Positions 602 through 58,074 of a stretch of DNA of 64,000 bases are shown here, one piece after another; position 1 is the stretch's first letter; the number at the start of each line of letters is the position of its first letter. Both the position numbers and the translations under genes were made by a program. The stretch covers positions 2,921,501-2,985,500 of the forward strand of contig NC_091673.1 of NCBI RefSeq assembly GCF_042453785.1, read 5' to 3'. The stretch is from Malus domestica. Its lineage: Eukaryota; Streptophyta; Magnoliopsida; Rosales; Rosaceae. The notes under the pieces were generated by a model. The model searched no databases. It was not told the origin of the DNA and worked only from the letters and a program-made list of their open reading frames with translations.

Positions 602-3565
602 TTAACATGTTGTCAAAATCTCAGCACCGGTTCTAGTAATCAGAATGGTATGTTCAAACTGCGCAGCCGGGCTACCGTCCGCGGTCAGCGTCGTCCAATT
701 GTCCGGCCACGTTTTACACTCGATGCTTCCCATTGTAAGGATGGGTTCTGCAGCAAAAGAGAAATAACATTTTGTGTGATAAGGATCATTGGTCAGAATT
801 CTACCGTCGCATGCTCAAACTTAGGATCTTGAATATGCCGCGCCGCTTTCAGTAAAATTTATGCATGTTTTACCGTCGACTTTACAAACTTGAAGAAGAT
901 AAAGTTGCAGGTATATTGATTTCTGAGTATGGAAAGTACTGCACTCACCAATGGTAAATGTCTGACCTTCAACCATGGAACCAGACTGGTCATTCCCTGT
1001 CAAAAAATACATGACAATTATAAGCAGTTCATGTCTCGGCGGTAAAGATAGTAACGAAGGTTTAATATCGAGTAGTGGCTTACGGTGATGTAATATTAAT
1101 GGTTCAGAATGAAATACAGTCCCTACACCGTGCCCAACAAAGCGCTCTACTACGCCATAACCATATTTTTCAGCATGTTCGCTGAAAAAGAACCAAATAA
1201 AAACTTATGAACAAGGGAAGGAATTGTGCATTGTTGTTCAATGGTGTAAAATATGCAATTCTTTCCGGTCGAGGATTGACAATTAATCATCTAAAAGATG
1301 TCCAGAATAAGTTTTAGTCCAATATATCACAAGGAGGCGAATCAAACCTAATTCTCTTTCCAATTTTCTTGAAGCTAGCACCGTCCTTGCAAACTGCTAT
1401 GCCTTTTTCCAAGCATTCTTCGGTTACCTGCCACCAAGATAGATTGGTAATGCATAAATTGGACGTCTGTAACAAAATCAAAGCTTAATAAGGAATAGAT
1501 ATGTAGTATATTCCTAAACAGATACGAAACTCGGATGGATGTGAATGATAAAACCATGCTTCTGAATAACGACAAGATGCAACACTATCAAGCAGAAAAA
1601 GTTTACCTTCAGTAGTCGTTGGATTGATTCACTGACCTCCCCACAAAGAAAGGTCTTTGATGTGTCTCCATGATATCCCTGTCAAAGTAGACAGCACGAA
1701 TGTACTGAATCAGACCATTCATTATTGAATAATAGGAAATGGTACAAGAACTCAATGAACGAAAATACCCTACTGATTGCATCATACCATTTGTTATCAA
1801 ATAAAGGAAATCAAGCTTTGATACCAACCATTTTAATGAATTCACACATTAAACTACAGATAGCTGGCAGATAACTAGTATTTGTAAATGCAGAACTCAA
1901 TAGATAAATAATCAGGAAACTACGTTAAAATCAAAATTAAGCGAATGACATAAAACATTTTCTGGGAGCCGATTTGGTTAGAGAAAGGATACAAATGAGC
2001 TAAAATGACGAAAGTCATAAAATCAGGAGCGTACATTTAGGTAGACCGTCACATCTATGTTGATAATGTCTCCACTCTGCAAAAAAGATTACCATTAGTG
2101 AGGTATGACATGAACACATGTATGCAAGGAGCAATGTGCAATGTAGCCTTTGAGCAATGTGCAATGTAGTCTTCGAAACCTGTAACTGTCGAGAATCAGG
2201 AATTCCATGGCACATGCACTCGTTAACAGATGTGCATACACTCTTCGGAAATCCTCCATAGCCAAGTGGTGAGGGATAGGCACCAGCATCAACAATCATC
2301 TGGTGCACTGCTATGTCAATTTCATTAGTTGTTATTGACGGCTGGAAGGATGTAAAAAGATGTTAATAGAATATCAAAAAACTCCTATACATACAATTAA
2401 AACGCCAATGGCAACAAACATAAGTTGTATCAAAGGAATAAGATAAGACATAAAAGAATAAAAAGTACATTTACTATTTTTTATAAGAAACAAAAAGCTC
2501 AAGCTTCAAATATCCAAAAAAAAATAATGGAACTGCAAACCTAAATTCAGATAGCGGAAAATTGGTAACTAATACGAGTAAAAACTGTGGTTAAACCCAA
2601 AATTTAAAACATAGACCTGCAAGGTTCTAGAATTTGACATCGAGTTGCACTCACTAACTTAGGAAGTCAACTGAACTGAAAATCTGTGGAAGTCTCAATA
2701 TGTCAAACATATTTTTCAAGTGATAGTTTGGCACCACCGAACATACATGTACAAACCTTGTAGACAAACACAATTTGACAGCAACTAGTAAAAGCTGAGA
2801 AGCTTACCCTAACCAACTTTCCTGCAGATTCTAAGACGCGAGCAGCAAGCTCGCACGCAGCTCGCATATCAGCAATGCCTTCAGAACCAGGAAATTGATG
2901 TTCACTGGCAATTTCTGGCAATATAGATGAACCAACATAAGGAGGCCTAGGAATGTGATCTGGAACGGGAAGTTGTGGCGACACCCTTCCACGCCTCAAT
3001 GGCGGCCTTCTTCCAATCTTTGGCGCAAGCTGCCGAGTCTCACGATCTCTACACATTATCGAATCATCAAATTAACGGAATAAACCGTATCGAATTTTGC
3101 ATTGCTCTATTTTTTTGTCAACAAATATATGTCAAATGGTTGTCACATTTCTCATTAACTCAAATTATCAAAATTATCACTAATTGCAAGCTACAGTATT
3201 CCAATTTGTATGAAATCCGAGGTTTGGGGGAATTGTAAGACTTGGTTGGAAGAAACAGGAGCGGCGCGTACCTTTTAATTCTCATGGCCTCCTCCAACCC
3301 CGAAAGTCTCCGAGCAAACACAACGAGGTTCTTCCGACAAAAGGATTCTTTTCCTGAACACATAGAACATATAAAACAACGTAGCTAAACCAAACGATTA
3401 CGAGGAACATTCACAGAGGAAAACAAGAGAAACCAGACCATAGGTGGAGAGGGAGAAGCTGAGTGGGGACCCGGCGAAGAGAGTTGACTTCGTTGAACTT
3501 AGTAAGACTTGGCCTTGGCAGCCATGAGAAGGAGCTGAGAGTTGCAGACCTCCGGCGACTGCCAT
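602..3565 (-). CDS. MAP1B: Methionine aminopeptidase 1, plastid type (MAP1B/1C-like)
   Basis: This metalloprotease removes the initiator methionine from nascent proteins, here probably in plastids. I reconstruct ten exons: 3439-3565, 3272-3353, 2808-3048, 2180-2341, 2035-2076, 1607-1678, 1348-1427, 1084-1181, 949-996 and 602-747. Together they are 1098 nt, or 365 residues. The start is the only ATG in frame with the mature protein, and the first ~55 residues are Ser/Leu-rich with few acidic residues, like a transit peptide. The family metal ligands are all visible: Asp in INIDVTVYL, Asp in HGDTSKTF, His in [12 protein letters not shown], Glu in FTIEPILT and Glu in QFEHT. The segment [20 protein letters not shown] is the usual plant MAP1 linker. 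The cytosolic MAP1A zinc-finger region is absent. Which paralogue (1B, 1C or 1D) is not certain; synteny with RAV favours the gene next to Arabidopsis RAV1. Confidence 0.93.
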
Positions 3566-4236
3566 TTTCTCTCTCTGTAACTCTTGCTCTTGCTCCTCCT
3601 TGCACACAGAGAGGAAGAGGGAGGTGGGAGAGAGAGTGGATAACGTGACGGAATCAGTGGCCTTTTGGGTTGGTTTGAAAATTTGGATGAAAAAAGGGGC
3701 TTTTTGCAATATATTGGGCCTCGACCATTCGACGTCGTTGTGTTCGGCAAAGATGCTTGGACTTTGGGCTTTTTATTTTTGACCAAGGCCCAAAACACTG
3801 CTTGTGGGCCTTCCACGAAATTGAAGTCCAACTTAAATTCGATGCTTAAATGTAACGACTACAATGGCATTTTCATTTGCCTGTAATGAAAATTGGAATT
3901 ATTTCGATTTTTAGAATTTTTACTTTTACCATAATATGATTGTTGAGATATTACACACGAAATACAAAAGTGCAGGATTCTGACTAAAAATCCATAACGT
4001 AGATCCATGAAAATTATAAATCATATGAATTGGATGGTTAGTTTATCTCACTCTTAATCCTTATTTTACTTTCTTGATTTATGATTTCTCTCGTTCTAAG
4101 TAAATATGCAGACAAACAATTCAATTCGAGCCAACTTTTATAAAAGAAAACAAAAAGGAAAAATCGAGTCAATATGTTCGGTTTTCAAAGTCAACTCAAC
4201 ATACATTTTTTTGTTAAACCCAATTTCATTTTTTAA

Positions 4237-4566
4237 GGCTTTTTAGCCAAAATGGTCTATGATATTTGCATAACTCCTCATTTTAGTTCTTGAGATTTGA
4301 AATTAATATAAGTGGTCTTTGATTTTGTCCACCATCAATCATTTTGGTCATTCCGTGAAAAAACTTCTGAAATAAGAATCAAAATGACAAAAATATTCTC
4401 AATTTAATAAACAATTGGTCAAAATGATTTAACAAACAATTGAAGGTATTTTTGTTATTTTATCTTTATTTAATGGAGATTTTCCAAGGAATAACCAAAA
4501 TGATTAATCAAAGAACAAAGTGATGAGTTACGCAAATTTCAAAGACCACCTTGATTAAAAAAACCT
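4237..4566. repeat. Long inverted-repeat MITE, AAAATGG family, copy A
   Basis: The left end reads GGCTTTTTAGCCAAAATGG, and the right end contains its imperfect reverse complement (gaccaccttgatt followed by a T-rich terminus). The two arms can be aligned over more than 100 bases. Two related copies lie at 12246-13383 (split) and 31096-31462. No open frame of note occurs. The superfamily is not determined because I cannot fix a target-site duplication. Confidence 0.7.
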
Positions 4567-5595
4567 TTTTTTAATTTGTCAAGTTCGATCCGGGTCACCA
4601 ATTTACGTACTAGTCCGCCCACCCAGCCTTAACCCTAATAGAATCTAAATTTGAAGAAAACGCGTTCATATGGAAGGATGGGCCAGGCAATGGCGAGTGG
4701 AATATTAAGGTTGATTGACAGGAGGAGAAAGTTGAAAAAACACAGCCAAAAACCAACAACTTTACGACCGACTAGCCGGAAGAAAAATCCGGATTTTGGA
4801 TTTGGGGTGCCATTGACGCCAAACCCATGCATGGCCACAACGTTAATTATTTCCTACACGAAATGATCTGAAAGATTTTTAATATATCAATCACGGGGTT
4901 GTATATTCCTTCACATATACCACATCTTCATGGAAGTTACGACGAACCACAGAACAGAACATGCAAGATGGGAAGTAATGTTATTGCTTACAAATTAAGT
5001 ACAATTAATCTTCAATATTTCCTCTTAAGTACAATTAATTAATCTTCACTACTCCCTCTTATCAAGTTATCACTATATAAAATACAAATGTTTTTGCCAT
5101 TTGAACTCGTCAAATATTAATTATAACAAGTCAATATAATCTTATGTGATTCTAAAGACTGATACACATCATATTATAATAGCATATAAAGTATCATATA
5201 TTGTGTAGTTCTTTTAGTGTTTATAGAATACGGTTACGTGACGTTATTATTCTACTTAAATTATGTTATTTTATTAACACATCCTAAAACTGAGATGTCA
5301 CTAATCAGTATACATAATTGCAACAACTTAATCAATGGTCACTTGCTCGACCAAAACACTGAAACACATGTGGAACTGCCTACAGGATTTGATTAAGAAT
5401 TCGAAAGATTTAACCTACCTCTTAATTAGCAGCGCAATGTTATGTGTGTATGATTTGTAAACGAAATTATTAAGATTGTGGTTCCTTGTCAATATTTGGG
5501 TTTATCTTTCATGCTATTAATTTACGATTAATTAGTATCTCCACGTGCAGCGTTGAATGATCGAGTAAAGTACGAGAATTAGAATTTATAATAAA

Positions 5596-8291: not shown

Positions 8292-9512
8292 CTACAAAGC
8301 TCCAATGATCCTTGGCTTCTTGCCAAACTCTAATTCCAGTAACTCCATCTCTCTCATTCTCTTTCCAATATTATTATTGCAACCTCCGCCGATAGCAGCA
8401 GCTGCAGCTGCATCCGCTGACCCGGGCCCGCTGCTCCCAGGTATTTTGAATATGTTGACCCCAAATAGCCGAACCATCGGAACCGGACCAACCTGAACCG
8501 GGCTTGACCCATTATTGTTGGTATTATTCACACTCATCCTGGCCTTCCAATCAATGTACAGCTGCTTGTCCGGTCCGGTCGACCTCTGAAAGCTCACAAT
8601 GTCCCCGGCCATCAGATTCTTCTCCTTCACGAACCGGCTCCACCCTTTGGTCAACACGTAGCTTTGACTGCTGTTCCAGTAAGAGTACCGAAACCTCCAC
8701 ACTTTGCCCCCGACATCCTCAAAATTCAAAAGCACTCCTTTGCAAGCGGTAGAAGCGCTTACCGTTAAGGTTGCAGCGCTTCCGCTTTGCAAAGGAAAGT
8801 GCTTTTCCGCGTGCTGCTTCGGGATCACGAGGCGGTTCAGTTTCCCGACATCGCTCGGGGTCACCGCTTTTTCGAAAAGCTGCTCACGCGCTTTCGGGAC
8901 TCCACTGTTGTCCGTACCGAACAGGCCCAGTGATCCGTTGGACCGGGACCGCTTCCCGTAAGCGGAGTTGTTGCGCTTGCTCTGTTCCAGCTCGTCATTG
9001 TAAGTGTGCTTTCGCAGCATGTCGACGATTTCGGACTTAGAGTGGGAGCTCAGAAACGCGGCCTCGGCGTCGTCGTTTTCTTCGTCGTCGGAGGAAATGG
9101 GTTCGGCGGATGAGGGCTTAAAGTTGGTGACGGCGTCGCGGCCACGGAAGCGCTGTGCAGCAACGTCGTAGGCCCTGGCGGCCTCGTCCTCTTCGTTGAA
9201 GGTACCCAGCCAGACGCGCTGGTGCTTCTCGTAAATCTGGGCACCCCAGCGTCCGTTGGGCTGCGGGACCACGCCTTTGTACCTGGAGGAAGGGAGCTTC
9301 CGGGACTCGGCCTCGACGCCGCCAGTGCCGCCGCTGCTGCTGAGCTCGGGGTCGAGAATCACACTGCTGGCGCCGCTGCCGACGCGGCAGAGGCTGGCCA
9401 CTTGGGGTGCTGACTTGGCAAATGGGTCCACACGTGCAACAATATGTTGGAGTGGGGAAATGGATATGGAGTCGCTGCTTGTGCTCTCTTCTGTGCTGCT
9501 TATTCCGTCCAT
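8292..9512 (-). CDS. TEM1/RAV: RAV/TEMPRANILLO AP2-B3 transcriptional repressor
   Basis: This is an intronless 406-residue DNA-binding protein of the RAV class. Arabidopsis relatives repress FT and gibberellin genes to delay flowering and respond to brassinosteroid and cold. The AP2 domain spans about residues 77-132 ([20 protein letters not shown], then WLGTF and AARAYDVAA). The B3 domain spans about 211-325, from [20 protein letters not shown] to GDIVSFQRS and LYIDWK. The C-terminal tail carries RLFGV at 348-352, the B3-type repression motif. The N-terminal 70 residues are Ser-rich. A stretch of Ala and Asn repeats follows the B3 domain. Coding GC is much higher than the flanks. RAV1, RAV2/TEM2 and TEM1 cannot be separated by eye; the neighbours match all three Arabidopsis loci. 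Confidence 0.96.
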
Positions 9513-9559
9513 TTTTCTTGTTTGTTGATTGTGTATGTTGTGTGTTCGAAGGGGGAGAA

Positions 9560-9564
9560 GGGGG

Positions 9565-9611
<47 letters not shown>

Positions 9612-23299: not shown

Positions 23300-26200
23300 T
23301 TATTGGGGAGTAAATGGTGTTAATGACTTGGCATGTTGGCTCTCCATCTCAAGAAGCATCAGGGACTTCTGTCTTTGATACCTGTTTCTCTTAGCGGAAA
23401 GTGCTTGAGGAAGGGGAAAAAAATGAAAAAACCCGTCAGAAGAAACTGAAAAACTGAATACATAATATGCTAGCGGATTAGACAAGACAACGATGCCTAG
23501 AAATGGAAGTGCGAAATATGTTCTGGTGCTATTGCCTATTGTATCAGTTTTACAATTCATGTTTGTAGAAGATTGCAACAAACACAACACCAGTACGTGA
23601 ATTGCAATTAAGTTGCTACTGTTGTGAAATAGAAACAAAGATGAACATGAAATATCAACCACAAAAAAAGATATAATCAACAACAAAATATAAGATATAT
23701 TGACAAATCTGAACTTCTTTCATACTTACACGTTAAGTCTTGCGGTAGGCCAAAGTCGTAATCATTCCTACGCCTTCGGATGCAAAATATGTACAATGCC
23801 AACATGACCAGACAAAAAACAAGAACACAGGATACGGCTATCGCAATTTTACCCTTCTTAGATAAGCCTCCATTTTCCCAAAACAGAGGACAATCGGGCA
23901 AAGATGGTACACCGCACAAACCTTTGTTACCATAAAGACTGTCGAAGAAACATAGTTGCTTATTAGTTAAGTATACAACGAAAGGCTCTTATCACAACCA
24001 ACAACAATAATGTTAATAGGTCATTGAATACTGATGTTAACACCTATGTTTTATCCTTACAAACAATCATACAAGCCTACATTAGAAATGTGCAGCTTCA
24101 TCAAAATGTAAAATATAATTAATAAAAGTGAGAATATCGAACTATAATGTGACATACTCAATTGCTCCACCATGCACACCAATAGAATAGAGCTCCTCTG
24201 GAACTTGGCCTTCCAATAAGTTATTGTTCAGTAACCTGATAACAGAGAATGCGTCTTCAAAAGAAAGCAATAAACATCTGGAAAGCATATTGGCAATCAA
24301 GACTAGAAGATGGGAGACCTTTACAAGCTAGCATAATGTTTAAATATGGTTGCCAGTGTTAGGTTAAATAGAACTTAAACAGTTTGCATTTTGGCAAAAC
24401 TCCCAAGGAAAGATCGAGACCTTTACGAGCTAGTATAAAGTTTACTGAACAACATATGTTTAACAACTTAGTCTAAGTGTTGGTGACTTATCAGTAGAAG
24501 ATATCTATTGATTACAAGACTTGAGAAAATTTGAAGCAGCAGTTTCCCAGACTTGAGGGATGTTGAAAAGTCTACCGCACGTAAAATCTATCTTCAGTTT
24601 TTGGCACAATAACACATTTGCTTTAAGCCCTTCCTACTTCAAACCCGCAACCTTATTATTCAGTGATCACAGGAGAACATTTTCATAGCAAGGTTCCACA
24701 CACAAAATGAAAACTCACATAATTGGAATTCGTAATTAAATTGTCCACGACAGAGTTCCATAACCAAATAATGGAAACAAATGTATAAGCAGAACACTTA
24801 CACAAGGTGGAGATTTGAAGTCGCTAAACTCTGCGGTATAGGCCCAGTAAATTGATTGTTCGACAAATCCCTACAAATACAAATGTAATAACAATAAATA
24901 ATCACACAGAATCAAGTAACAAACCGAAAAAGTAAAAAACAAAATATCAGACTCTGTCCACATATGAAATCAACAACCATGCTATCACTTTGCATACTTA
25001 ACTATAACTGGTCTCGATGGGCAACTTGGATAATTTTCCAGAAAAGAAATCAAGAGGTGAGATCATAAGAAAAAAAAAAAAAAAAAAACTGGAGCTGATA
25101 TGACAACGAAAACGAACATCATAACTTTAACTGCTAAGTCTGTTATTTAGATAATGTCATTTAGATGAAGAAAAAGAAAAATGGCAAGAGAAAACTTCTC
25201 AAACTTCAGGGCAAGATTTCAAAGTCCAAACTATATGACAACCTGGTTTAACACATGAATTGTACAGTGAACAATTTTAAGCTGATTTGAAGTCAACTGC
25301 TGACATTAACAGTGAGATACACTTGTAGTTAACAAATATGAAGTCGATTTAAAGAAAAATCATGCATACTAACAATGAGACAGTTCCGAGTCACACAAGA
25401 GCATTAAAAAATCAATTGAGATAAGATTATACTCAACAGAATCAAGATGGATGGTCAACCAAGTGATGTTCCCGTACAGAACATTTTTCAGTTACACAAG
25501 AACATTCAAACAGAAACAATCAATAGCACAACAAAGATCAAAAGTATTCTACTGACATTGCAGGAAAATGAGTGGGACTTACAGCCTACGGAGAGTTTTT
25601 TGGCCTAGCCCAGATGGTAATACGCCCTCCAAAGAATTGGAGCTTAAGTTCCTGCAGTTTTTTTTCGATTGAGAAAATCGTATAAACTTCTACTCTAAAC
25701 AAGTTGAATCACCAAGAATTAGTCTTTGCAGGTGATACTTACAGGCTTACCAAGTTCGACAAGAGACTAATCTGGTCACTGATAAACCCTTTCAATCCTT
25801 GACTTCCAAGATCGCTGAAATACACGATACCATTAATTGAATGGATAATGCAGGTAGATTTACAACTTCACACATCTATTTTAATCGACTTCAATGCTTT
25901 TGATTAAGAAAATAAAATTCTTACATTCCAGATATGACTAGGGCAGTTCCATTCTTATTTTGCTGGCACGAAACTCCCTCCCAAGCAACCCAATTGGACG
26001 GAGCACATGGATCACCATTCCACCCCATCCTACCGGGAACTCGAAGCGATTCCTTCAATGCTCTCATAGCAACCACTACAAACAATAGAATCATGAGCTC
26101 CCAAGTTAGTTATATCAATCACAATTCAACTATCATCACCCTCAATCAAACAATTAACTTAATTGTCATTAACGAATACCTTGTTCTGGAACAGTGGCAA

Positions 26201-27417
26201 CATCAGCAGGAACCAGAGCGTAGTTTTCGAGCCCGCTGATCAACACCGCGCCGACAACATTCTGAAGCTTCACACTCAGAGCATTACTGCTTAAGTTCTT
26301 CACTGTGTAATTCCATGAATATGCCGCGAAGCTCCCCACCTCCTTGAATATGTCAATTCGCTTAACATTCTTGCCATCGATGAGAATGTCGAACACTCTC
26401 TGCCCCGCCCTCGTCACGCTCGAATCGATCTCCGCGAAATGGAACCACAACAAGTAATCGAGCTTCGCGTCCACCTGCAATTCGTACTCCAGGGCTTTGC
26501 CGCCGACGACCGCCGCCGATTGGTACAATTTCATCGGAAAATAGTTAGGGCCCTGGTCGGTGTTGGTAATGGTGTTTCTGGTGGTGATGGATCGGACGGT
26601 GGATTCGTCGCTGGTGGATCGGAAATCCTTGTCGCTTTGCCATGAGCGGCCGAAGAGGTCGGTGTCGTTGCTGAAGCCTGGGCCAAACTGATCAGAGCCG
26701 CAGGTGAACCGGCCGTAGTTGACGAGAATGTAGTCTTTGCCGAGGGTAACGGCGTCATAGGAGTCCGGGTCAACCCGGATGAGCTGGAGCGATCCGATGA
26801 CGGGAGGGTCGGTGGCAATGCTATAGAAGCAGACATCGGCGTCGGAGTCGGAGACGAAGGCGAAGAGATCCGAGTAGGCTCCGGTGCGGGCGAGGTCCTC
26901 GGGCCACGGGGAGCGCCAGGAAAACACCACAGTGCCTTCGACGGAGATGTCGAAGGAGGGGGAGTGTGACTTGCCGTCGTAGTTGTCGTAGACGGTGAAG
27001 GTGCGGATGTAGTAGCGGCCGGAGGGCAAATTGGGGATTATATAGCAGTTCTTTTTGCCGGAAGATAAAGGGAAGTAGCGGAGGGTCTGCTCCTGGGGGT
27101 GGCGGAATTGGAGTGGCTCGGAGACGATGGCGGATGCGCCGCCTGTGAAGAAGCGATCGGCGAGCCAGGTGGTGTTGAATGGATCGGTTTGGTCGGTGGT
27201 GCTGCCGGAGTCTATGTGGTAGGCGACTCCACCTGCGACATATGAAAAAAAAAAATTAAAAAAAAAAGTAGAGTCAGTGACAGTTAGAGAGTTAGTTAAT
27301 GCGGTTAATGTGTGGAGCGTGGAGATTATTACCGTAGGGATAAGGCGGTGGAGAAGCGGAGGAGGAGAAGGAGGAGAAGACAGAGAGTGAGAGGAGGAGG
27401 AAGACGACGGCGGTCAT
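23300..27417 (-). CDS. Malectin-like LRR receptor-like protein without kinase
   Basis: This is a predicted single-pass plasma-membrane protein of 629 residues, probably binding a cell-wall carbohydrate or peptide. I reconstruct nine exons: 27333-27417, 26180-27232, 25925-26075, 25743-25814, 25583-25651, 24802-24870, 24158-24235, 23730-23938 and 23300-23403. The first exon is a hydrophobic signal peptide (MTAVVFLLLSLSVFSS). Exon 2 is the malectin-like region. Exon 3 has WNGDPCAPSNWVAWEGVSC, the usual junction before LRRs. Exons 4-7 each encode about one LRR (GLKGFISDQISLLSNL, SLEGVLPSGLG, QFTGPIPQSLA, LLEGQVPEELYS). Then come NKGLCGVPSLPDCP, a membrane span (IAIAVSCVLVFCLVMLALYI) and a basic tail of about 50 residues ending KSLTPFTPQ. 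It resembles RLP4 and the Arabidopsis protein encoded next to TEM1. The function of this subgroup is not established. Confidence 0.9.
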
Positions 27418-33308: not shown

Positions 33309-34382
33309 ATGCCACAGGGCCATGGTCCTCTCCACCTCCTCCTCGCCGCCCTCTTCCTGGCTGCAACCGTACAATTTCCGGCGAATTCCGCCGCCGCCGA
33401 GCTCCCCGAGTTCCGAGAAGCACCTGCATTCCGCAACGGACGAGGATGCCCCCGAACCGCATGGTCCTCGTTGGACCAGAACTCCCACTACGACCCCTCC
33501 ATCATCCACATCGCCATGACATTGGACACCACCTACCTCCGCGGCTCCGTTGCCGGCGTCTTCTCCGTCCTCCGTCACGCTACCTGCCCCGAAAACATAG
33601 TCTTCCACTTCATCGCCGCCTCCCACCGCAGTCGCCGCTCCTCCGACCTCCACCACGTCATCACCTCCACCTTCCCTTACCTCACATTCCACCTCTACCA
33701 CTTCGACTCCAACCTCGTTCGGGGCAAGATCTCATACTCCGTCCGCCGCGCCCTTGATCAGCCCCTGAACTACGCGCGCATCTACCTCGCGGATCTCCTC
33801 CCATCGGGCGTCCGCCGCATCATCTACTTCGACTCCGACCTCATTGTCGTCGACGACGTGGCGAGGCTGTGGCGGATCGACCTCGGGCGGCGCGTGCTGG
33901 GGGCGCCGGAGTACTGCCACGCCAATTTCACCAACTATTTCACCCCGAAATTCTGGTCGAACGCGGCATTCGCGGCGGAGTTCAAGGGGCGGAGCGCGTG
34001 CTACTTCAACACCGGGGTGATGGTGATCGATCTGTGGAAGTGGAGGGAGGGCAAGTACACGCAGAAGCTGGAGCACTGGATGCGGGTGCAGAAACGGTGT
34101 CGTATCTACGAGCTGGGTTCGCTGCCGCCGTTTCTGCTGGTGTTCGCGGGTGACGTGGAGGGGGTGGAACACAGGTGGAACCAGCACGGCCTTGGCGGTG
34201 ACAACGTGGAGGGGCTGTGCAGGGACCTCCATTCTGGCCCAGTGAGCCTGCTGCACTGGAGCGGGAAAGGGAAGCCGTGGCTGAGGCTGGACTCGAAGCA
34301 GCCGTGTCCGTTGGATAGCTTGTGGGCCCCGTATGATCTGTATCGTGACCATCGTCACTCGTCACTGTTCTCTGATATCTGA
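33309..34382 (+). CDS. GATL: Galacturonosyltransferase-like GT8 protein (GATL)
   Basis: This intronless gene encodes 357 residues of the plant GATL subfamily in glycosyltransferase family 8. These Golgi enzymes act in pectin or xylan synthesis. A hydrophobic N-terminus (about residues 7-30) is a signal peptide or anchor. [15 protein letters not shown] (66-80) opens the GT8 fold. The metal-binding DxD is DSD at 175-177, in [13 protein letters not shown]. The stretch [19 protein letters not shown] (230-248), the motif [15 protein letters not shown], and NQHGLGGDN (291-299) are family hallmarks. So is [11 protein letters not shown] at 314-324, the donor-binding HxxGxxKPW. Third-position GC is very high for this locus. 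By microsynteny the closest Arabidopsis relative should be GATL3, next to RAV1, but the subtype is not certain. Confidence 0.95.
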
Positions 34383-36423: not shown

Positions 36424-36844
36424 TCATGTTGAGATTAGGTATGCCACAGCTAAGCATTCAGATACGTGAAACATTTCTTAAGGAAAACTAAATCGGCCAT
36501 TTTAGTTGGCAATCATGGAATGTAGAGGCCCATCTTATTATCCAGCCCAACTAAATAGTTCCACTCTCCCAGCCCATACACCCACAAGCCCACTCCATCC
36601 CTGTGGAGCATGGGTTGACGTGTCAATCTCTCCTTTCTTCCTGAATTATAATCCATTAATCCCCTCGAGCCATTTCCCTCCACAAATATACCTGTAATAA
36701 CCGTCACCAAAAACAAAAATTAATAAAAATCAGACTCTGCGAGTAGTGGTCCAAATTTGAAGGACTTGCTCGAAGAAAGCCAGTGACTGTCGCTACCTGG
36801 ATTTTCCCCAACACAAATTCCCAAAGCCTCCTCACTTTCCGGCC

Positions 36845-39800
36845 ATGGCGGCCACTGTCGCAGCCGGCGGAGTTAGCATCGGGACGGCCAAGCTCCGTCC
36901 TCACCAGTCAAAACCCACCTCCCCGTTTCTCGGCAAAAAACTCAAAATCAGACCTACCTTGGAATCCCAGCAACGCAGTTCGAGAATCACAATCTTAAAC
37001 CCCAAAACGCTGCTGGTTTTCGCTTCCGGCGGCGGTGAGTTGATCCACGCCGTCAACGACCTGTTTCTGGGGGTGGGGGTGGGGCTGCCGTGCACGGTGA
37101 TGGAGTGCGGCGACATCATATACAGAAGCACCCTTCCCAAATCCGATGGCTTGACGCTCACGGCCCCCGGTGCTGTTCTGGCTCTGGGCGCCCTGTCGTA
37201 TCTCTGGGCCACCCCCGGCGTGGCTCCGGGGTTCTTTGACATGTTTGTGCTTGCTTTTATTGAGAGGCTCTTCAGACCCACTTACAAAAAGGTAAAAAAT
37301 TTTGTTTAAATTTTGGATTTTGATTGGAAATCTGAAGTGTGTTTTGTGTTGATTTTTGTGGGTTTACAGGATGATTTTGTTTTGGGGAAAAAGTTGGGAG
37401 AAGGTGCTTTTGGAGTTGTTTACAAAGTTTCATTGGCTAACAAGAAGTCTTCTTCCAAGGTAATAAAGTAATTATAATTTTGGTCGATTCGGAGATTGGA
37501 GAGAATGTCTTTGAGCAGTTGTATCGGAGATTGTAAATCTTATGGGAATGAATGTGATGTACTAATGTGTTGTTTTTGGTTATCGCTAGAAAGAAGGCGA
37601 CTTGGTGTTGAAGAAGGCTACTGAATATGGCGCGGTAGAGATTTGGATGAACGAGCGTGTGCGGAGGGCGTGTGCGAACAGCTGTGCTGATTTTTTGTAC
37701 GGCTTTCTTGAGGTGTTGATCTATAATGCCCACTAGTACCATGTGATTTCGGGGTATCATATTATTGGAATTTTACTTTGATACTTCATTCCATTGCACA
37801 TTCTAGTTTCCGTCGTAGGAATTATTAATTGTGACGAGTCTGGTTGCAGAGTTCTTCTGCAAAGAAAGGACCTGAATATTGGCTCATATGGCGGTTTGAA
37901 GGGGCGGCCACTCTTTATGATTTGATGCAAAGTAAAGAGTTTCCGTACAATGTTGGTACTTTCTCCCATAAGCCTTTACATGTTCATAAACTGTTGTTCC
38001 CTGAAACTGTTTGATGATTTTGTAGTTTCAACTATAATGTCCAAACATTGATCCGTCCATTGGCTTATCGAATTTACAATAAATTCTTTCCCGAAACATG
38101 CCACACAAATGTCAGGTAGAAACAATGATTCTTGGAAAGGTTCAGGACTTGCCGAAGGGTTTGGAAAGGGAAAACAGAATCATACAAACGATAATGAGAC
38201 AGCTCTTATTCGCACTGGATGGTCTTCATTCAACTGGGATTGTGCATAGAGACATAAAGCCACAGAATGTTATTTTCTCTGAAGGTACTAATACTTATCA
38301 GCATGCTGTACATAAATCGATAAAGAACCAGGAAATCTCAACTGTTCTCATATTCGAAGGTTTCCTATTCTCGTTTTAACAATGTGCAGGCTCTCGTATA
38401 TTCAAGATCATTGATCTTGGAGCTGCAGCAGACTTGCGAGTCGGCATCAACTACATCCCAAAGGAGTTTCTTTTGGATCCAAGGTATCTTTCCAGCTAAG
38501 TAGTCTAAGTAGCGCACTCGCTAATTGCTACAAAAAGGCATGATGAACTCATGAATCTAAAGTCCTGCATCAGAGGAACAAAGCCTTAAAAAAAATATCA
38601 GCTTCACCAAGCTAATGTACGTTTACTTGATATCCAAGGGACTAAAATCTCAACAAAAACCCTGCACTTTGTGAAGTGAATAATACATGAGATGTAAGTA
38701 CTGATCAAATATGCGATATCTGATTTCGGAATAAATGTCTTTTAAAATAAATATTGGTAATTTGCATGTTTGATTAATAGCAAGGTTCACTTCTTATAGC
38801 ATCTCACTCAATTTGTAGTAGGCATTCATGATGTCGATTGGGTCTTTTCCTTTTCAGATATGCTGCACCAGAGCAATACATCATGAGCACACAAACGCCA
38901 TCTGCACCTTCTGCTCCTGTGGCAACAGCACTTTCCCCAGTTCTCTGGCAGGTGAAAATATTAATTGTTATATCATCTCAAATTTTATTATTGCTAACTT
39001 ACTTTCTCAGGCAGATAAATTGATTTAATGGTTTTAATTATATGGTCTTGAGCAGATGAATTTACCGGATAGATTTGATATCTACAGTGCCGGTCTCATA
39101 TTCCTACAAATGGTGAGTGACATAACTTGCGGAATATAGCTATTGTTGGTATACTAAATGATTCACTCAATACTCTTTCAACTTCTTCATACAGGCCTTC
39201 CCATCATTACGCAGTGACAACAGCCTAATACAATTCAACCGTCAGCTAAAAAGGTGCGATTATGACTTGGTTGCATGGAGAAAAGCCGCCGAGCCCCGAG
39301 CTAGCGCTGATCTACGAAGAGGTTTTGAGTTGTTGGATTTGGATGGTGGCATTGGATGGGAGCTCCTGACATCAATGGTTCGGTACAAAGCGAGACAGAG
39401 AATCAGTGCGAAAACAGCCTTAGCGTATCCCTACTTTGACAAGGAAGGACTGTTGGCTCTGTCCTTGATGCAGAACCTGAGGTTGCAAGTGTTTCGATAT
39501 ACACAACAAGATTATGGGGAGGCTGCCAAATGGATTATTCGGCTAATGGCACGATCAGGAACCGCGCAGGATGGTGGCTTCACAGAAGCTGAGCTCCAGG
39601 ACCTTAGAGTTTGTACCTGAACTTAAATTTGGAAAAGGAAATGCTTTTCGCACACCCATTTTCTCCTCGGCACTCCTCCCTTTGTTCCTAGCCTTTGAGT
39701 TGAACAAATCAAAGGAGAATCAATGGACTTAAACAAGAGGAGTGCAGAATGAGAATATAGGAGTGTGAAAAATCACCATCCATTCGGAAATCATTAAAGT

Positions 39801-40011
39801 TGTAATCTTTTCGGGAGTTACACTTCTATATAATGTGCAGGAATTGAATCCTACTAGTAAGAAGAAGGCAGGTGCACTGGGAAGGAATGCTTTGGCTTCA
39901 GCTCTTCGGCTGCAGAGGAAGATTGTGAAGACGTTGAACGAGAGCATGGATGAGATCAACAGCCGTCGGAAGAGTCTCTGGTGGAGCAGGTGGATCCCAA
40001 GAGGGGATTGA
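36845..40011 (+). CDS. STN7: Thylakoid protein kinase STN7
   Basis: This thylakoid Ser/Thr kinase phosphorylates light-harvesting complex II when the plastoquinone pool is reduced, driving state transitions and long-term acclimation. Ten exons total 1761 nt, or 586 residues: 36845-37291, 37370-37459, 37590-37712, 37850-37951, 38116-38284, 38390-38483, 38858-38951, 39056-39112, 39195-39608 and 39841-40011. The exon 4/5 border could shift by 4 nt without changing the protein. The N-terminus looks like a transit peptide. Two lumenal cysteines, in [11 protein letters not shown] (C83 and C88), match the redox-regulatory pair. A membrane span follows near residues 101-121. The kinase has [11 protein letters not shown], the catalytic HRDIKPQN and [10 protein letters not shown]; the DLG instead of DFG is normal for STN7. 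It matches Arabidopsis STN7 nearly end to end. Confidence 0.97.
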
Positions 40012-40593: not shown

Positions 40594-40628
<35 letters not shown>

Positions 40629-44098: not shown

Positions 44099-44251
44099 AT
44101 GAAGATGGGCAGCTCTGGCAGCATGGCAGGCAGCAAGAGAAGGCTGTCTTCGTCGTCAGGCAAAGGACTCGGAGGGGTCCTGCGAGAGCAAAGAGCCAGG
44201 CTTTACATCATCAGGAGGTGTGTGGTCATGCTCCTCTGTTGGCATGATTGA
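44099..44251 (+). CDS. DVL/RTFL: DVL/ROTUNDIFOLIA-like small polypeptide, 50 residues
   Basis: This intronless 50-residue peptide belongs to the DVL/RTFL family, which limits polar cell proliferation in leaves and fruit when overexpressed and acts at the plasma membrane. The start (ATGAAGATGGGC) is the first ATG after the leader; a second in-frame ATG follows at codon 3. Residues 1-27 are Ser, Gly and Lys rich and poorly conserved in the family. Residues about 34-50, [17 protein letters not shown], are the diagnostic DVL domain with its two cysteines and the terminal CWHD. From memory, Arabidopsis DVL genes also lie beside both GATL3/RAV1 and STN7/RAV2, which supports the call. The reading frame is short enough that automated annotation often misses it. 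Confidence 0.95.
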
Positions 44252-47497: not shown

Positions 47498-48875
47498 ATA
47501 TACAAGTACTTCCTATAGGATGTGAATTAAGACTTGAGTTAGTCATGTTTTTCTAGGGTTGTCTTTTACTATTTGGGATTCTTGGAAAAAGGATGGCAGT
47601 AGGATTATCCAATTCTGTTATCATCCTATTCTCTGCTGTCCTCTCACATTTTATTTTTGTCTTTTTTGTATCTATTAAAAATTAACATAAGATGTTGATA
47701 TGGATTAATCGTAACTATTCAAGTAGGAGGGAAGCGAAGGAGAGAGATTAGGAAGGAAGAAAATCATTCTCCAGACAATGGGTCACGGGCCATGGTGTCT
47801 CCTCGTATTAAGGTGGTTACTTATATTTTTAATAATTAATACACGATTTTGGATAAGTATTTTTTTATTTTTTGGAAAAAAAATTATTGGGTTATGCTGG
47901 CTGTTAACAAAACAAGGTTCCAAAATCTTGCATCTAAAAACCCTACATAAATAGGGTTAACGTTAAAGAAAATCATGTTTTAATGATGTTACAAAGACAA
48001 GAAGTCATGCACAGCATGTAGACGGATAGATAAAATTCAGGGGCTCCTTGTCCAGTTCTTTTCTTTCATTGGAACCCAAAAAAGCCAGGGTGCTGTGGCC
48101 CTCTTCGTCTACTTTTTAGCACCATCAAGGCATCAAAGAGAAAAAGAAGACCAAGTGCATTTGCCAAGGGAGGGAAGCATTAGGCAAGGTCTTGCTAATA
48201 AAACAAAGGGGTGCCGTGCCCTATTCCAACTAGGTCACTTACCCTACAACAGGCTAAAAGGGCACCAGTAAAAGCTGCTTTTCCAGGTTAGGTCTCATCT
48301 GGCTTCCCCACGAGCAAGTATGCTGCTCATCAACAAGCACTTTTACCTCCAAGTGCTTAATTCAACAGCGGGGCTAGGCCCAGTGGTCTATCAAGCTATT
48401 TTCAAAGCCAACTTGCATGACCTGCGCAGCCCTGAGAGTTCATGAATGTTTTCTTGTCCAACCTGTTCTCATTCGATTACAGAGGAGAAACTCGTCAGTG
48501 TTTTCCTTGGCGTTGATAAAGCATCGAGTTTTCAATCATTTGATGGTCCACAAGTCTCTCGCCTTTCCTTTTTCGCTTGTTTTATGTCGTTGAATCCGTT
48601 ATAATTCGAATGCCAAGCTTTCGAATCCAAAGACACAAAAGCAAACCAGATAACATAACTGCATTTTAGCTTGATGCTTAAAAGAGAGCAAAAAGAGTAC
48701 GTTCGATCGATGTTTGAACACAAACGATCAGAGAATTACAGTTACAAAAAACAGTTCTTTACCATAAGGTTAGATATCACGCCAAGCTGATTTGATAGGC
48801 ATAGTTTAACCAAAACGTAGCAAGAAAATATTTACCACCATTGACCATAACCAACACAGAAATCCCAAACCATGT

Positions 48876-51800
48876 TCAGTCAGCCACCTTGCCACCCCAA
48901 GAAAGGAAACTCTCCTGTGACCCAAATTCCTACAATGCCCCGATCCCGAAATGCGTTAGCACAAGGGAAAATGCAAGAAAAAGGAAAATTGTCAACACCA
49001 ACAAGCAAGAGAAAATCGCAGAGAAGACGGCTTACCAGCTGGCTGAGTCGGAAATCAGGAGGTGTATCAAGGTCCATAATATTAGCAGGATCAAGGACAA
49101 TATTTTGGCATGCCTCTAGATCCTTCTTTAAATCCTCAGGTCCTAGTTTAGCATAATCAGCAAGACGGGGTTTGACATGTGCTTGTTCACCATTTTCATG
49201 CCCACCCCTATTTGGAGATTGGCTCTGAAGGAGCTCATCACACAGAGACAACCCTTCCACAAGTTGTTGCGAATCCAGAAGGTTCTGTGACTCATTGTCC
49301 CACCATTTTGGATCTTCCTGAGCATGATCAATGTTTTCAGTGTTATTAATTACTTCATCGGCTTGGTTTTCTACCTTGTGTTGATCATAATCGTCAGGAA
49401 TTTCAGATTCAGGGCGAACATCTTCAGCACGGTTCACCTCGGGATGAACTTCATCCAAAGCAGAGTCTACATCAGGACGCACTTCATCTTCAGCACCGTC
49501 TTCCTCACGATACTTCAATTGGATACAGAAGCCATAAAAATAAGCCCATATCAGTATCTGTTTGGATCATTCACATTTATGCCACATTCTTACACTACAT
49601 ATTAATGAAAGATTACGCAGAGGGAATGTACAAGAAAGTACCCATGAAGGCAGGAACAAATGCGAGCAGTATAAGTTTTAAATCTTCAATTTGAATACGT
49701 TCGTCACACAATAGATAAAAATGCCTTCTTGTGCTGCTAGTAGAAATGTGGGAGTAAACTAAAAACAAAATTAAGAAAACAAATTATACCTGAAGAAGGG
49801 GATCTCTGGACGGAGCAGGAGTATCCAGTCCCAAATGAAAATCACCAAGCTTTCGTTCGGCGCGTGGAGGTTCAGGAGTAGCCGACTTGGGAGTGACTGG
49901 ATCTACCTTTGTGATCACCGCATCAATACTTTCAGGAACATCTTGATCAGTTTTATCAGCTTGCTTGGCTTCCTGCTGCTGGTAATATATTTTTGATATA
50001 ACATACTCTCCATCCTTCTCATCCTCCTCAATGCCTAGGTGATATTGATGCATAACCCAATTGGTTTTCACAGGTTTTCCTCCTCCGACCGTGCTCATGT
50101 ATAGAACCATAATCTTCTTGCACCCTCTTTGTACTCCATCCAAGATCACTGGTTTAGTCCTTCCAGTCTTGTGCCAGCGGACATCACCATCACCATCACC
50201 ATCATGTATCTTTCGCCGCTTTCGTGTTCCAGTATTGTAAGCCTTAATTGCTCTATGAAAGAAGTGGGATGGACTTCCATCTAGCTTAACATCTAACATT
50301 TAATTTTTTGAATCAATTAATAAAAGATTAAGGGTCAAAGATTTAAAACAAAACAAATGTTTCTCACTTACTAGGTAGTTTCCTAGGATGGGAACAACAG
50401 ATTCCTTCGTCGTCATCGACAGTTAGAATAAACTCATCAATAAAAGGATGGGGTTTTTGATCACCTACACCAGATTTTGCTAGTAAGTGCCACATAATCT
50501 CTTGATCGGTTGGATCAAATTTTACACCCTTGGGTAAACCCGGCCACTCTTGAGCAACCTGGAAAGAGATGGCAAACACCCTAATTTTCAAAGTTCTACA
50601 ATTTTCGTTAAAAATAAATGAAACAACAAACAGAAACAAACTTCATCTAAAAATACTCCAACAGAGCTTCTGTACCTAATGGTTTTTCATTGATGAACGT
50701 TAAACCTTAAACATATGGATCAAAAAAACAAAAACAAAAACCTTACATCACTATTGTCCATCGTATATTGGCATTTTGGACAAGATTTAGTTGGGTTGCT
50801 TTGCCATTTAATTCCAACAGAATCATAGCTTCCAGATGCACTCCTGATTTTTGTTGCGATTCTATTTTTGTCAAACAACCATGATGGCCTGCATGTATTA
50901 CACAAATGATTACACTTGAAGCAATCAGCTGCTCCCATATATGATCAGCAAAGTATTTAAACTCTTGACCGAGCTTAATTAGAATACATATTTTAAGTTG
51001 GAAGGACACTGAAAAGAGACATCAAGATATAACCAGCAGTACAGAGATTATTGAGAACAAACAACATAGTTAAAAAGATTAACCCATGAGAATACATAAC
51101 CAAGTAAAAAAACTGCCTAAAACTACCAAATAATGACTGGTAACAGATTTAAACTATGAACTGTTTCTATCATGGTATACATGTAAACAAATGGAATGAC
51201 GCATAATTTGACTAGATAAATGAAAAATAATGTTAGAAAATATATGATAACTTGCAAAGAAAAAACCTTTTAGCGCCAAAACACACTCGTAATCACTCTT
51301 CACGGATCATGACATTCATGCTCCCGAATTCGAGGTAGAGGGATGCAAACATATAAAGCGTTTTAAAACACACTCACACAGAGGAGAGTCATTGTAAATG
51401 GTAATACAAGTGAGCCGACAATTAAAGCCATAGACATCGAAGGCAACTACCACATTAGAGTAGTTCATAATGATAATAACAAAAACCAGACTAATTAATA
51501 ACTCGATGAGAACAAAGGGCAATGGATTACATTATTATATGAATCCATCTCAATCTTTCCACCTAAATATAACAAAGGGTACAAGCAGAAGTGGGCGTAG
51601 CCACATTAGCTACACCGGATGTGCTCCCCTATGCACCCGAGTTCCAAATCCCCCTCCCGCACATTAGATTAGTTTAAGGCATAATATCGCTTGTACAACG
51701 AAAATGCGTGCAATTTAAAAGGAAACGTAGAAAGTAAAGGAACAAGCATATGAATCTACTTTTCTCAAAGTTCAAAATTTTCATGGTATATTCGATCAAA

Positions 51801-53005: not shown

Positions 53006-56000
53006 ATGAGCAGCAGATCCAGAAACTTCCGCCGCCGCGCTGACGACGGCGACGATCAAAACGACGACGCAAATGACACCACAACCGCAGTTAAATCCTC
53101 ATCAAAACCCTCTTCCGCCTCCTCGTCAAAGCCCAAGAAGCCACAGAACCAAGCCCCGAAGCTTCTCAGCTTCGTTGACGACGAAGAAAACGCAGCCGCC
53201 CCCTCCCGCTCCGCCTCTTCTTCCAAACGCGATAAGCCCTCATCCCGTCTCGGCAAGCCCTCTTCAGCTCATAAGTTGACGGCTCTCAAAGACCGTCTCG
53301 CTCATTCGTCTTCCGCGTCGACTTCCGTGCCGTCCAACGTTCAGCCACAAGCAGGTACCTACACGAAAGAAGCGCTCCGTGAGCTGCAGAAGAACACGCG
53401 AACCCTAGCCAGCTCCCGACCTTCCTCCGAGCCCACCATTGTTCTGAAGGGCCTTGTCAAACCCACCGACTCAATCTCCGATACGCTGAGAGAAGCCCGG
53501 GAGTTGGACTCCGATTCCGACGAGAAGCATGAGAAAGAAAGGGGTAGTTTGTTTAATAGGGAAAAAGACGATGCGGAGGCCCGATTGGCCTCGATGGGAA
53601 TTGACAAGGGCAAGAGCTCACCTGGTTTGTTTCCTGATCAAGCCACCATAGATGCAATTCGGGCAAAGAGGGAACGGCTGAGGAAATCGAGGGCAGCAGC
53701 CCCGGATTTTATCTCATTGGATTCAGGGAGTAATCATGGCGCTGCGGAAGGATTGAGTGATGAGGAACCAGAGTTTCGAGGCAGAATTGCAGTGTTTGGG
53801 GATAAGATGGACGGTTCTAAAAAGGGGGTCTTTGAGGATGTTGATGATAGGGCAGTGGATGTTGGATTGAGGCAGGAAAGTGTCGAAGATGGTGATGAAG
53901 AGGATGAGGAAGAGAAGATTTGGGAAGAAGAGCAGTTTAGGAAAGGGTTGGGGAAGAGGGTGGATGACGGGGCGGTCGGTACTAGTGCTCCTGCGGTTCC
54001 TAGTGTGCCCCAGCCAAAGGCTACCTACTCTGCAGTGACGGGTTATAGTTTGGCACAGAGTGTGCCTGTTGGGCCAAGTATAGGAGGGGCAATTGGAGCA
54101 TCACAAGGTTCGAATGTGATGTCCATAAAGGCGCAGGCGGACATTGCTAGGAAAGCTTTGGAAGAAAATTTCATGAAGCTTAAGGTATGAATTGCTGCTC
54201 TTCTGGTCAAGTTGAATTTTATATCGAAATCTATCAATGTTGGAGGTAAAGCATTTCTAGGTATCATAGGATAATAATTGAGTGACATATTGGCTTTTAG
54301 TAATGTGGTCGTGTATGTTGGTCTTAACTTTAGTTCACTAGCTATGGTTTTAATGCATAGATGGAATAACATTTTGATTGTGTTACTTTCCAACAGATTT
54401 TGTGGCATTAATGCATTTGACAATAAGAACAAATGTAAACCAGAGAATACATAGCTGAATATATGAGCCATACGTTTGGAAATAAAAACTCTACCAATGT
54501 CAGGGAGCTCATTACTGACATGATATATCTGCGTTGTATTTTATCTGCCTTTATAGCATATTCATATGATAACCATGTAGCATATTCATATGATAACCAT
54601 GTACTCAAAATATGTTTTGATCTCTCAGGCAAGTCATGGCACAACCATGTTGTCACTAACTAAGACTGACGAAAATTTGTCTGCCTCGCTGTTGAATATT
54701 ACTGCTCTCGAGAAGTCTCTGTCTGCTGCTGATGAGAAGTACCAGTTCATGCAAAAGCTTCGTGATTTTGTCTCTTCCATATGTGACTTTTTGCAGGTAT
54801 GCTATCGTAAAATACAATATGGTTTGCATTTGCTCCCCAAAGTTTTCCTTGGCCTGCTTACCAATATGGAATGTCAACTGGAGGGCATTTCATTTAGGAT
54901 TCTGGTAGAACCAACGACATTAAGTTCTGGAAGAATGTAATGTGCCTGAGTTTCAAGCTACCTGGCAGCATAGATGAATCATTGGCTCTTCATTACATTT
55001 GCATATGATACACATTATAATTCACTCTCTTTCTGAGGACTTGTTGCTGAAAAGTAGGCTACTGTAGGAGGAATTCGAAATGGCCATAACCCCCCATTGT
55101 TAATATCAAAGGGATTAATCTCTAGTTTCTTGTTCTTGTATAAAAATTTAGACTTGTCTGTTTTTTCCCTACGACCTTTTTCTCTAAGAAAAATGGCCGA
55201 CAAAGTTAACACTTCTTCTTGAAAGTGAAACTGGCAGTGGTCCTTCCCAGATTAGCAGATTGCAATTTGTTTATCCCTGGAAATTCAATCAAAGTTTGGC
55301 AACCACATAAATGATTGATGAATATTCCACTGTAGCAACCACATTTTAACTCTTAACAGAGTTCTCGTTGTGGATTGCTAACCATAGCAGGTAAAAGGCC
55401 TTCTACGCATAGATTACCAATGAAGGACTTGAAGACTGTATAGAACAAAGGCCTCTAACTCAACATTGGTTACCATTGATGTTCTGTTTGCTTGTGCTTA
55501 CTGTGTTTGACGGTTTACTTCATTTTCTAAATAAACGTATTTTTGAGATGTGCCATATGACTTCTATTATCTACTTGATGTTTCTTCTTCTATTTCCATT
55601 TTTTCAATCCCGTTAAGGACAACATAGCATGTTGATCTGAACTTATCTGTTCCTGTAATTCTTCATTTTCAGGTTAAAGCTCCCTATATAGAAGAGCTTG
55701 AAGCAGAAATGCAGAAAGTTCATGAACAACGTGCGTCATCTACTTTGGAGAGGAGAAGTGCTGATGATGATGAAATGATGGAAGTAGAAGCAGCTGTAAA
55801 AGCAGCAATGTCTATCTTCAGTAAAGAAGGTAGCAGTGCTGAAGTAATTGCAGCTGCTAAAAGTGCAGCACAAGCTGCATCTGCTGCTTTGAGAGAACAA
55901 ACAAATCTACCAGTGAAGTTAGACGAATTTGGTAGAGATATGAACCTTAAGAAACGTATGGATATGAAAGGGAGGTCTGAGGCTCGACAACGCAGGAAAG

Positions 56001-58074
56001 TACGGTACGACTCTAAGAGACTGTCATCCATGGATGTGGACAGTTCCCATCGAACAATAGAAGGAGAATCAAGCACTGATGAGAGTGACAACGAGAGTCA
56101 AGTATACCATAAACACCGCCAGTTGGTGCTCGACACTGCAGGTAAAGTATTCAATGATGCAGCAGAAGAATATTCTCAACTTTCAGTGGTCAAAGAAAGG
56201 TTTGAAGACTGGAAGAGAGAGTATGCATCAAGCTACCGTGATGCTTATATGTCTTTAAGTGTTCCTACTATTTTCTCTCCATATGTGAGGCTGGAGCTTT
56301 TGAAGTGGGACCCCCTCCGTGATAAAACAGATTTTCTAAACATGAACTGGTACTTTTTATTTCACACCCTCTAGAAACACTGAACCACACACAGAAGTAC
56401 TGCTGCTCGCTTACTTCCATCCTTATATTAAATATTCTTTTCTTCTGTTCAGGCATTCATTGTTAATGGACTATGGTTTACTGGAGGATGGAGATGATTT
56501 GGCATCAGATGATGCTGATGCTAACCTTGTCCCTGATCTGGTGGAAAAGGTTGCTTTACCCATTTTGCATCACCAAGTTGTTCACTGTTGGAACATTCTC
56601 AGTATGCGAGAGACAGAGAATGTAGTTGCTGCCACAAGTTTGGTAACAGATTACGTTCCACCTTCTAGTGAGGCTCTTGCAGATTTATTAGGTGCCATTC
56701 GCACCCGTCTGGCTGATGCTGTTACTAATATTACGGTACAACTTTTGAATTATCAAACTAAAGCTTTAAGACATTTAATCAGGCATATGCATGTGTGTTT
56801 TAAACATTGATGCATTAAGCATGTACATTTTATAAAAGTGATGTGTTTATGCTATCTAATTTATATTTTCCTTACCTACCTGTCAACTCTAGATTCTAAG
56901 TCGGAGAAACTATGAACCATGAAATTAATTTTGATCATTTCCAATGTATAGGTCCCAACATGGAGCCCGCTTGTATTGACAGCAGTGCCAGATGTGGCAC
57001 GGCTGGCAGCATATCGATTCGGTATGTCTGTTCGTTTGATGAAAAATATCTGCTTGTGGAAGGAAATCCTTGCTTCTCCCATTCTAGAGAAGCTTGCCAT
57101 TGAGGAGCTGTTGTGTGGTAAAGTTCTACCTCATGTTCGAAGCATTGCTGCAAATGTGCATGATGCTGTTACAAGAACTGAAAGGATTGTTGCTTCTCTA
57201 TCTGGGGTGTGGGCAGGTTCAAATGTCACAGGGGACCGCAGGTAGTGCTTCAACTAACACAGATTACTTCCATGCGTGAGTGTGCTTATTTGATGCGTGC
57301 ATGTTTGTGTCCTATGCCTGTGATGGATTTTTGAGTTCAATTAATGATGTAGACAATGTGATGCTTTGACCCAACTAATATGGTGCCTCAAATTGGCAAG
57401 AGTTTTAGCCTTCTCCTTTCTTTCCATTCTTCACCTCCCTTATCTTGTCCAAGGTCTTCCATACCTTTACAGGGTAACGAACTTTGTACAATTTGACGCT
57501 ATTACATTATAAACCTTTCATTGCAGATACATGGCTTGAACATCATGTTGAGTTGGACATTATTTTTATCATAAACCGGCTTTACATTCCCTTTAAAACA
57601 TTCAAACTTCTTTGCTTAAAAGAGTAGGATCTGCCCAGTCTAATTGTAATTTGTGAGTATGATGTCAGCTTGAAATGTTGAGGCCTTGTGCTCTTTTTGT
57701 TGCATAATTTTTCCTTCCCTTCAGTTTCCTTTTTCGTCGTTTAATTTTTACCTTCAGTTTTAAATATATTAACCAATACATGAGTTATAAAATGAAAATT
57801 ATACATTCTTGTACTTATACTACCTTTAACTGCATGTTCAATGCTCTTATTCATTTGCCTAAAGAAATAACTATTGTGCAGCCGTAAGTTGCAATCGCTG
57901 GTGGATTATGTGCTCTCGTTGGGTAGGACTCTGGAGAAGAAGCATTCGCTTGGTGTGACACAAAGTGAAACTGGTGGACTTGCTCGTAGATTAAAGAAAA
58001 TGCTGGTTGATCTGAACCAGTATGACAAGGCTAGGGACATAGCAAGGACATTCAATCTTAAGGAGGCATTGTGA
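53006..58074 (+). CDS. ILP1: ILP1-like GCFC-domain protein (PAXBP1 family)
   Basis: ILP1 (INCREASED LEVEL OF POLYPLOIDY 1) is a nuclear protein first described as a repressor of cyclin A2 and later linked to spliceosome disassembly; animal relatives include PAXBP1/GCFC. Six exons total 2790 nt, or 929 residues: 53006-54184, 54629-54796, 55673-56349, 56453-56735, 56952-57241 and 57882-58074. I chose the ATG at 53006 because GCCACCATGAG is a strong context and MSSRSRNFRRRADDGDD matches the family; an in-frame ATG lies upstream at 52970. The first 300 residues are acidic and low complexity. The exon 2-3 region is coiled-coil-like. The GCFC domain follows, with YRDAYMSLSVPTIFSPYVRL and LLKWDPL, then HDAVTRTERIVASLSGVW and the conserved end ARTFNLKEAL. 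No truncation is seen. Confidence 0.94.

Follow-up and report, generated by a model that had tools for sequence, protein, structure and literature searches.

Here, we report that the gene neighbourhood around MdTEM1 on chromosome 13 of apple (Malus domestica) very probably descends from one ancestral eudicot neighbourhood that was fractionated in Arabidopsis. The stretch analysed, hereafter the window, is 64,000 nucleotides long (C13:2921501-2985500), and genome-wide searches were run on the 651-Mb assembly of 19 contigs to which it belongs. Three observations carry this reading: the content and order of the genes in apple, their comparison with chromosome 16, and the agreement of their order with published Arabidopsis locus numbers.

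Gene content of the apple block

The window holds eight named genes, and those from MAP1 through SOG1 occupy about 51 kb. An earlier note on this DNA had located all eight, and domain, open reading frame (ORF) and PDB matches place them where it had put them. The limits given below derive from ORFs, Pfam and PDB matches and start and stop codons rather than from assembled spliced models.

602..3565, minus strand: MAP1-type methionine aminopeptidase; TAA at 602, ATG at 3565; Peptidase_M24 in two exons
8292..9512, minus strand: RAV/TEM transcription repressor MdTEM1; single ORF with AP2 and B3, 406 amino acids (aa)
23300..27413 (limits approximate), minus strand: RLP4-LIKE1-type receptor-like protein (malectin-like, leucine-rich repeats and membrane span); Malectin_like
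33309..34382, plus strand: GATL (GT8) glycosyltransferase; Glyco_transf_8; 357 aa from the ATG
36845..40011 (end approximate), plus strand: STN7 state-transition kinase; ATG at 36845; kinase match in one exon
44099..44251, plus strand: DVL/RTFL small peptide of 50 aa; Pfam DVL; ATG at 44099
48042..51758, minus strand: SOG1 (NAC domain); NAM domain; PDB NAC chains; outer limits are those of the block aligned to chromosome 16
53006..58074, plus strand: ILP1 (GCFC/PAXBP1); GCFC and NTR2 domains; PDB PAXBP1; start and stop codons

The RAV gene has the features of class I RAV (TEM) genes, with AP2 and B3 domains within one intronless ORF, and its top PDB match is the B3 domain of TEM1. Its coding sequence measures 1221 bp (406 aa) and the copy on C16 encodes 401 aa, as published for MdTEM1 (chromosome 13, 1221-bp coding sequence, 406 aa) and MdTEM2 (chromosome 16, 401 aa) (PMC9898550). 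The gene in the window is thus the published MdTEM1, matched by chromosome and length and not by GenBank sequence. Synteny of TEM between chromosome 13, chromosome 16 and Fragaria linkage group (LG) 4 was reported in the same work, which concerns the same locus and the same homoeologous pair; its passages on TEM synteny contain neither a four-cluster comparison with Arabidopsis nor a gene-by-gene discussion of neighbours.

The shared block reaches about 18 kb past the left end of the window. The Arabidopsis HRS1/HHO (NIGT1), WIP6 and AOC genes adjoin RAV clusters, and the prediction that NIGT1, WIP6 and AOC would lie to the left of MAP1 was recorded before the flank was annotated, when the flanks of chromosomes 13 and 16 had already been aligned. 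For allene oxide cyclase (AOC) the prediction was confirmed, as this gene directly adjoins MAP1 on the left (Pfam E 4e-99; PDB Arabidopsis AOC2, E 1e-79). It was borne out in part for the other two, whose names derive partly from sequence motifs, Pfam alone being insufficient. To the left of AOC stands a C2H2 gene with C2H2-type Pfam matches to the STOP2 and IDD families, two of them above the cut-off, which from its motifs we take to be of the WIP type (WIP6/DOT5). The flank further holds a GARP-type gene with a Myb match of 18.5 bits, under the 24.4-bit Pfam cut-off, and an N-terminal exon that has no Pfam match; from its EAR-like N-terminus and other motifs we presume it to be NIGT1/HRS1/HHO.

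Gene order in four Arabidopsis clusters

Arabidopsis has four clusters of the corresponding loci: At1g13245-13300, At3g25730-25790, At1g25550-25580 and At1g68825-68840. Each contains one group-A RAV, namely RAV1 (At1g13260), EDF3 (At3g25730), TEM1 (At1g25560) and RAV2 (At1g68840), respectively. The earlier note had described three clusters, and its neighbours are right as far as they were checked. RAV1 stands beside GATL3 (At1g13250), MAP1C (At1g13270) and the DVL gene RTFL17 (At1g13245), TEM1 beside RLP4-L1 (At1g25570) and SOG1 (At1g25580), and RAV2, also called TEM2, beside STN7 (At1g68830). What the note had missed is the fourth cluster, with EDF3 and MAP1B (At3g25740), the latter being listed together with MAP1C as a pair from the alpha whole-genome duplication (PMC4202327). 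Locus numbers are also published for NIGT1.1-1.4 and AOC1-4. Every cluster holds a different subset of the genes at the apple locus, which supports the note's further suggestion that each duplicated Arabidopsis block kept a different subset. Within the limited open-licence literature searched, the comparison of all four clusters was not found in print.

All ten gene types of these clusters are present on apple chromosome 13 (counting WIP6 and NIGT1, named partly from motifs), and ILP1 stands outside the clusters. For a test of order the apple genes were numbered 1-11 as NIGT1, WIP6, AOC, MAP1, RAV, RLP4-L1, GATL, STN7, DVL, SOG1 and ILP1, and the loci supported by papers were counted. In this numbering the cluster At1g132-133 reads 9,7,5,4,3,1, with six of six genes collinear (P = 1/360 given content). 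The cluster At3g257 reads 5,4,3,1 and At1g255 reads 1,5,6,10, each with 4/4 collinear (P = 1/12 given content in either case). The product of the three values, 1.9e-5, is too strong a figure since related duplicates are non-independent. The cluster At1g688 reads 8,5, these being its only two paper-supported genes besides NIGT1.2.

The RAV, DVL, GATL and MAP1 families are large, and relatives of GATL are indeed many in the apple genome (72 matches, 15 of them at E < 1e-120, counting the query and its chromosome 16 copy), so that members might have become neighbours by chance. It is scarcely credible that such coincidence accounts for one cluster with all six genes collinear and two more in agreement, for the participation of the low-copy SOG1, RLP4-L1 and AOC, and for a predicted left extension that was found, firmly in the case of AOC.

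The distribution of genes among the clusters is likewise structured. RAV and NIGT1 numbers lie near all four, the other neighbours in one to three. MAP1 and AOC occur in both At1g132-133 and At3g257, and RLP4-L1, STN7 and SOG1 in the remaining two, a pattern that may be explained by a split at beta and further loss after alpha. We infer this pairing at beta, when each loss took place and the precise ancestral order, which would have been NIGT1 - WIP6 - AOC - MAP1 - RAV - RLP4-L1 - GATL - STN7 - DVL - SOG1 (- ILP1). In the Arabidopsis lineage the block would have been doubled twice, by beta and then by alpha, and its copies would have lost different genes. One pair (At1g13245-13300 and At3g25730-25790) would have kept MAP1 and AOC, and the other (At1g25550-25580 and At1g68825-68840) RLP4-L1 and SOG1, or STN7, with RAV and NIGT1 retained in all four copies. 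Apple did not share the beta and alpha doublings of Arabidopsis. Its own later doubling would have given rise to the blocks on chromosomes 13 and 16, of which the latter would have lost STN7 only among the genes compared.

Several points weigh against descent from a single neighbourhood. The Arabidopsis side of the comparison consists of locus numbers from papers and not of Arabidopsis DNA, and the genome directly examined is that of apple alone. The number At1g13290 is a presumed one for DOT5/WIP6. The numbers of two DVL genes, At3g25717 and At1g68825, the latter being the second DVL gene that the earlier note had set beside STN7, are taken from a search listing alone. NIGT1.2 (At1g68670) is on the wrong side of STN7 and RAV2, and the fourth cluster is therefore not fully collinear. 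Finally, ILP1 (At5g08550, a number likewise from a search listing alone) falls in none of the four clusters.

With apple chromosomes 13 and 16 as the only places directly examined, and no outgroup among them, it might be argued that the genes came together only later, within the rosid or the apple lineage, and that the Arabidopsis clusters represent the older state. This is very unlikely, as it would require genes from four places in Arabidopsis, with a separate RAV at each, to merge and yet agree in order, and synteny at TEM is reported for Fragaria LG4 (PMC9898550).

A further alternative is that co-regulation or joint function, beyond descent, has held the cluster together. In its favour, locus numbers place RAV and NIGT1 in each of the four Arabidopsis clusters, and both genes are present on chromosomes 13 and 16 of apple as well. 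The other neighbours have been separated in Arabidopsis, and their roles in photosynthesis, DNA damage, the cell wall and splicing are unrelated, which makes this explanation very improbable. A narrower proposal is that the two transcription repressors NIGT1 and RAV, if their joint presence in every duplicate goes beyond chance, were retained as a linked, dosage-balanced unit that connects nutrient signals with the repression of flowering; this appears unlikely. The pair is found on both apple homoeologues; in one Arabidopsis cluster 17 locus numbers separate its members, which do not follow the apple order.

Descent from one neighbourhood, followed by fractionation, makes the locus an ordinary textbook case and not a new kind of system, and the synteny of TEM between chromosomes 13 and 16 is already in print (PMC9898550). 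As elsewhere in the alpha and beta fractionation of Arabidopsis, each duplicated block retains its own selection from a single ancestral set of genes; there is no difference in kind, and one more locus is added with four copies to compare. The apple block may serve as a reference order for the four Arabidopsis clusters that hold TEM1/TEM2, STN7, SOG1, RLP4-L1, AOC and NIGT1, by which the loss or retention of a gene can be attributed to either the beta or the alpha doubling.

The homoeologue on chromosome 16 and the flanking region

Aligned blocks of chromosomes 13 and 16 are collinear throughout the window (matches of at least 120 bp), short repeat matches out of order also being listed. The codon-weighted mean number of synonymous substitutions per synonymous site (Ks) is 0.23; values for the 11 exons or exon parts compared range from 0.07 to 0.36, and in 3 of the 11 a stop falls at a presumed non-coding (intron) edge. 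By their collinearity and low, similar Ks the two are homoeologues from the doubling in the apple lineage. Every gene compared has a counterpart on chromosome 16, and STN7 alone is a broken remnant there. Stops elsewhere on chromosome 16 occur where the chromosome 13 ORF seems to enter intron or untranslated sequence, as judged by position and not by transcripts. Exon 1 of WIP6 has an open frame on chromosome 16.

The first exon of ILP1 was found on chromosomes 13 and 16 only (2 matches, 22 candidates scored). Since the gene sits on both homoeologues, ILP1 cannot have joined the block after apple's own doubling. The earlier note had proposed that ILP1 was either added here or lost from the Arabidopsis blocks; it may have been added before that doubling or lost in Arabidopsis.

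The RLP4-L1 gene has a Malectin_like match in its first large exon (26172-27413, minus strand), the part covered by the domain scan; the ORF list, inspected by eye, suggests a membrane-spanning exon near 23.7-24.0 kb and no kinase. In the ORF translation the residues LSKKGK precede the membrane span. Printed primers, as translated here, give LSKGGK for RLP4-L1 and LSSGAK for RLP4. The receptor-like protein is best named RLP4-L1 because its motif is nearer to the former. That the chromosome 16 copy is a pseudogene was suspected from its stops and has been provisionally rejected: from query residue 59 the exon is open. Upstream of this residue the frame is lost and a stop occurs, and on neither chromosome was the start codon located. 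A second, broken RLP4-L1-like copy adjoins the chromosome 16 gene (C16:3254519-3255444), and short RLP4-L1 fragments of 85-88% identity lie on C7, C4, C14 and C5.

One of the two Peptidase_M24 exon matches of MAP1 falls slightly below the Pfam cut-off, and the N-terminus suggests an organelle-type enzyme (MAP1B/1C). A genome search with a single MAP1 exon gave four matches: the gene itself, the copy on chromosome 16 and, less strongly, sequences on C2 and C15. The NAC-domain exon of SOG1 lies at 49787-50299 on the minus strand.

On its right the block borders a quantitative trait locus (QTL) hotspot for apple phenolics. The LAR genes are about 20 kb to the right of ILP1 on both C13 and C16, with MdLAR2 at C13 ~2998.8-3002.9 kb (L023) and MdLAR1 at C16 ~3314-3319 kb. 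Primers printed in the study that describes the MdLAR1 hotspot on LG16, with MdLAR2 as its LG13 counterpart (PMC3599437), have exact matches in MdLAR1, the hotspot AP2 gene and a bHLH gene on C16, and in MdLAR2 and a G2-like gene on C13. The last of these is the NIGT1-type gene of the left flank, and the AP2 gene listed for the hotspot is the RAV of chromosome 16. The subject of that study, in the parts concerned, is metabolite content and not gene order. As expected for genes mapped elsewhere, the primer pairs for MdGAPDH and MdTTG1 had no match in the regions searched. The C13 right flank also contains a reverse-transcriptase-like ORF at 87284-88390 relative to the window (L024), of the non-LTR (long terminal repeat) retrotransposon type by eye, and related ORFs at 82.9-83.5 kb (L023), typed likewise by eye.

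Older relatives of RAV are found on C9 and C17, with 56-61% identity. At C9:5652237-5684054 a RAV and an AOC are about 30 kb apart, in the order and orientation of the block in the window; the AOC comparison gives a Ks of 1.35 and that of RAV is saturated. This pair may survive from the gamma triplication. Among the best candidates listed, NIGT1, MAP1, STN7 and ILP1 had no match at the older RAV loci.

STN7 and its transposed fragments

There is one intact STN7 in this apple genome after the lineage's own doubling. Genome searches with exons 1 and 9 found no second intact close copy, and the ORFs of exons 1 and 5 had no match in the 140 kb of chromosome 16 searched. Positions 36600-39382 of the window (STN7 exons numbered 1-8 and the start of 9) are without a listed chromosome 16 match, and the remnant at C16:3277474-3278102 consists of exon 9 pieces, split between two frames and interrupted by a stop. 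Its first intron (37292-37369) has GT/AG borders, and with exon 9 as the query, rather than the full-length protein, the best PDB match is MsStt7d (E 8.7e-5).

The exon 1 search further revealed 13 pieces of STN7 at about eight places, 7 of them with stops. Five copies were fetched:

C16:6.14 Mb (L038)
C17:14.1 Mb (L039)
C14:6.9 Mb (L040)
C16:8.8 Mb (L041)
C8:25.3 Mb (L042)

All five contain captured DNA that aligns to window positions 36877-37396 (in one copy to 37380), a segment covering exon 1 with intron 1 and the beginning of exon 2, with 80-81% identity; identity among the copies is about 84-91%. Four of the five are within elements of about 1.1 kb with terminal inverted repeats of ~200-260 bp, and the fifth (L038) looks interrupted. 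Two copies have an exact 9-bp target-site duplication, which in one case is a plain run of TA. A third copy has an imperfect duplication that becomes exact only if the ends are shifted, and at the other two none was found. From this structure the elements are probably Pack-MULEs that captured STN7 DNA; among the literature matches listed, no paper joined Pack-MULE and STN7. With the whole element as the query (40 of 660 candidates scored) 128 pieces were obtained, and because most of these cover the ends only, the inverted repeats are present at numerous sites that lack the STN7 piece.

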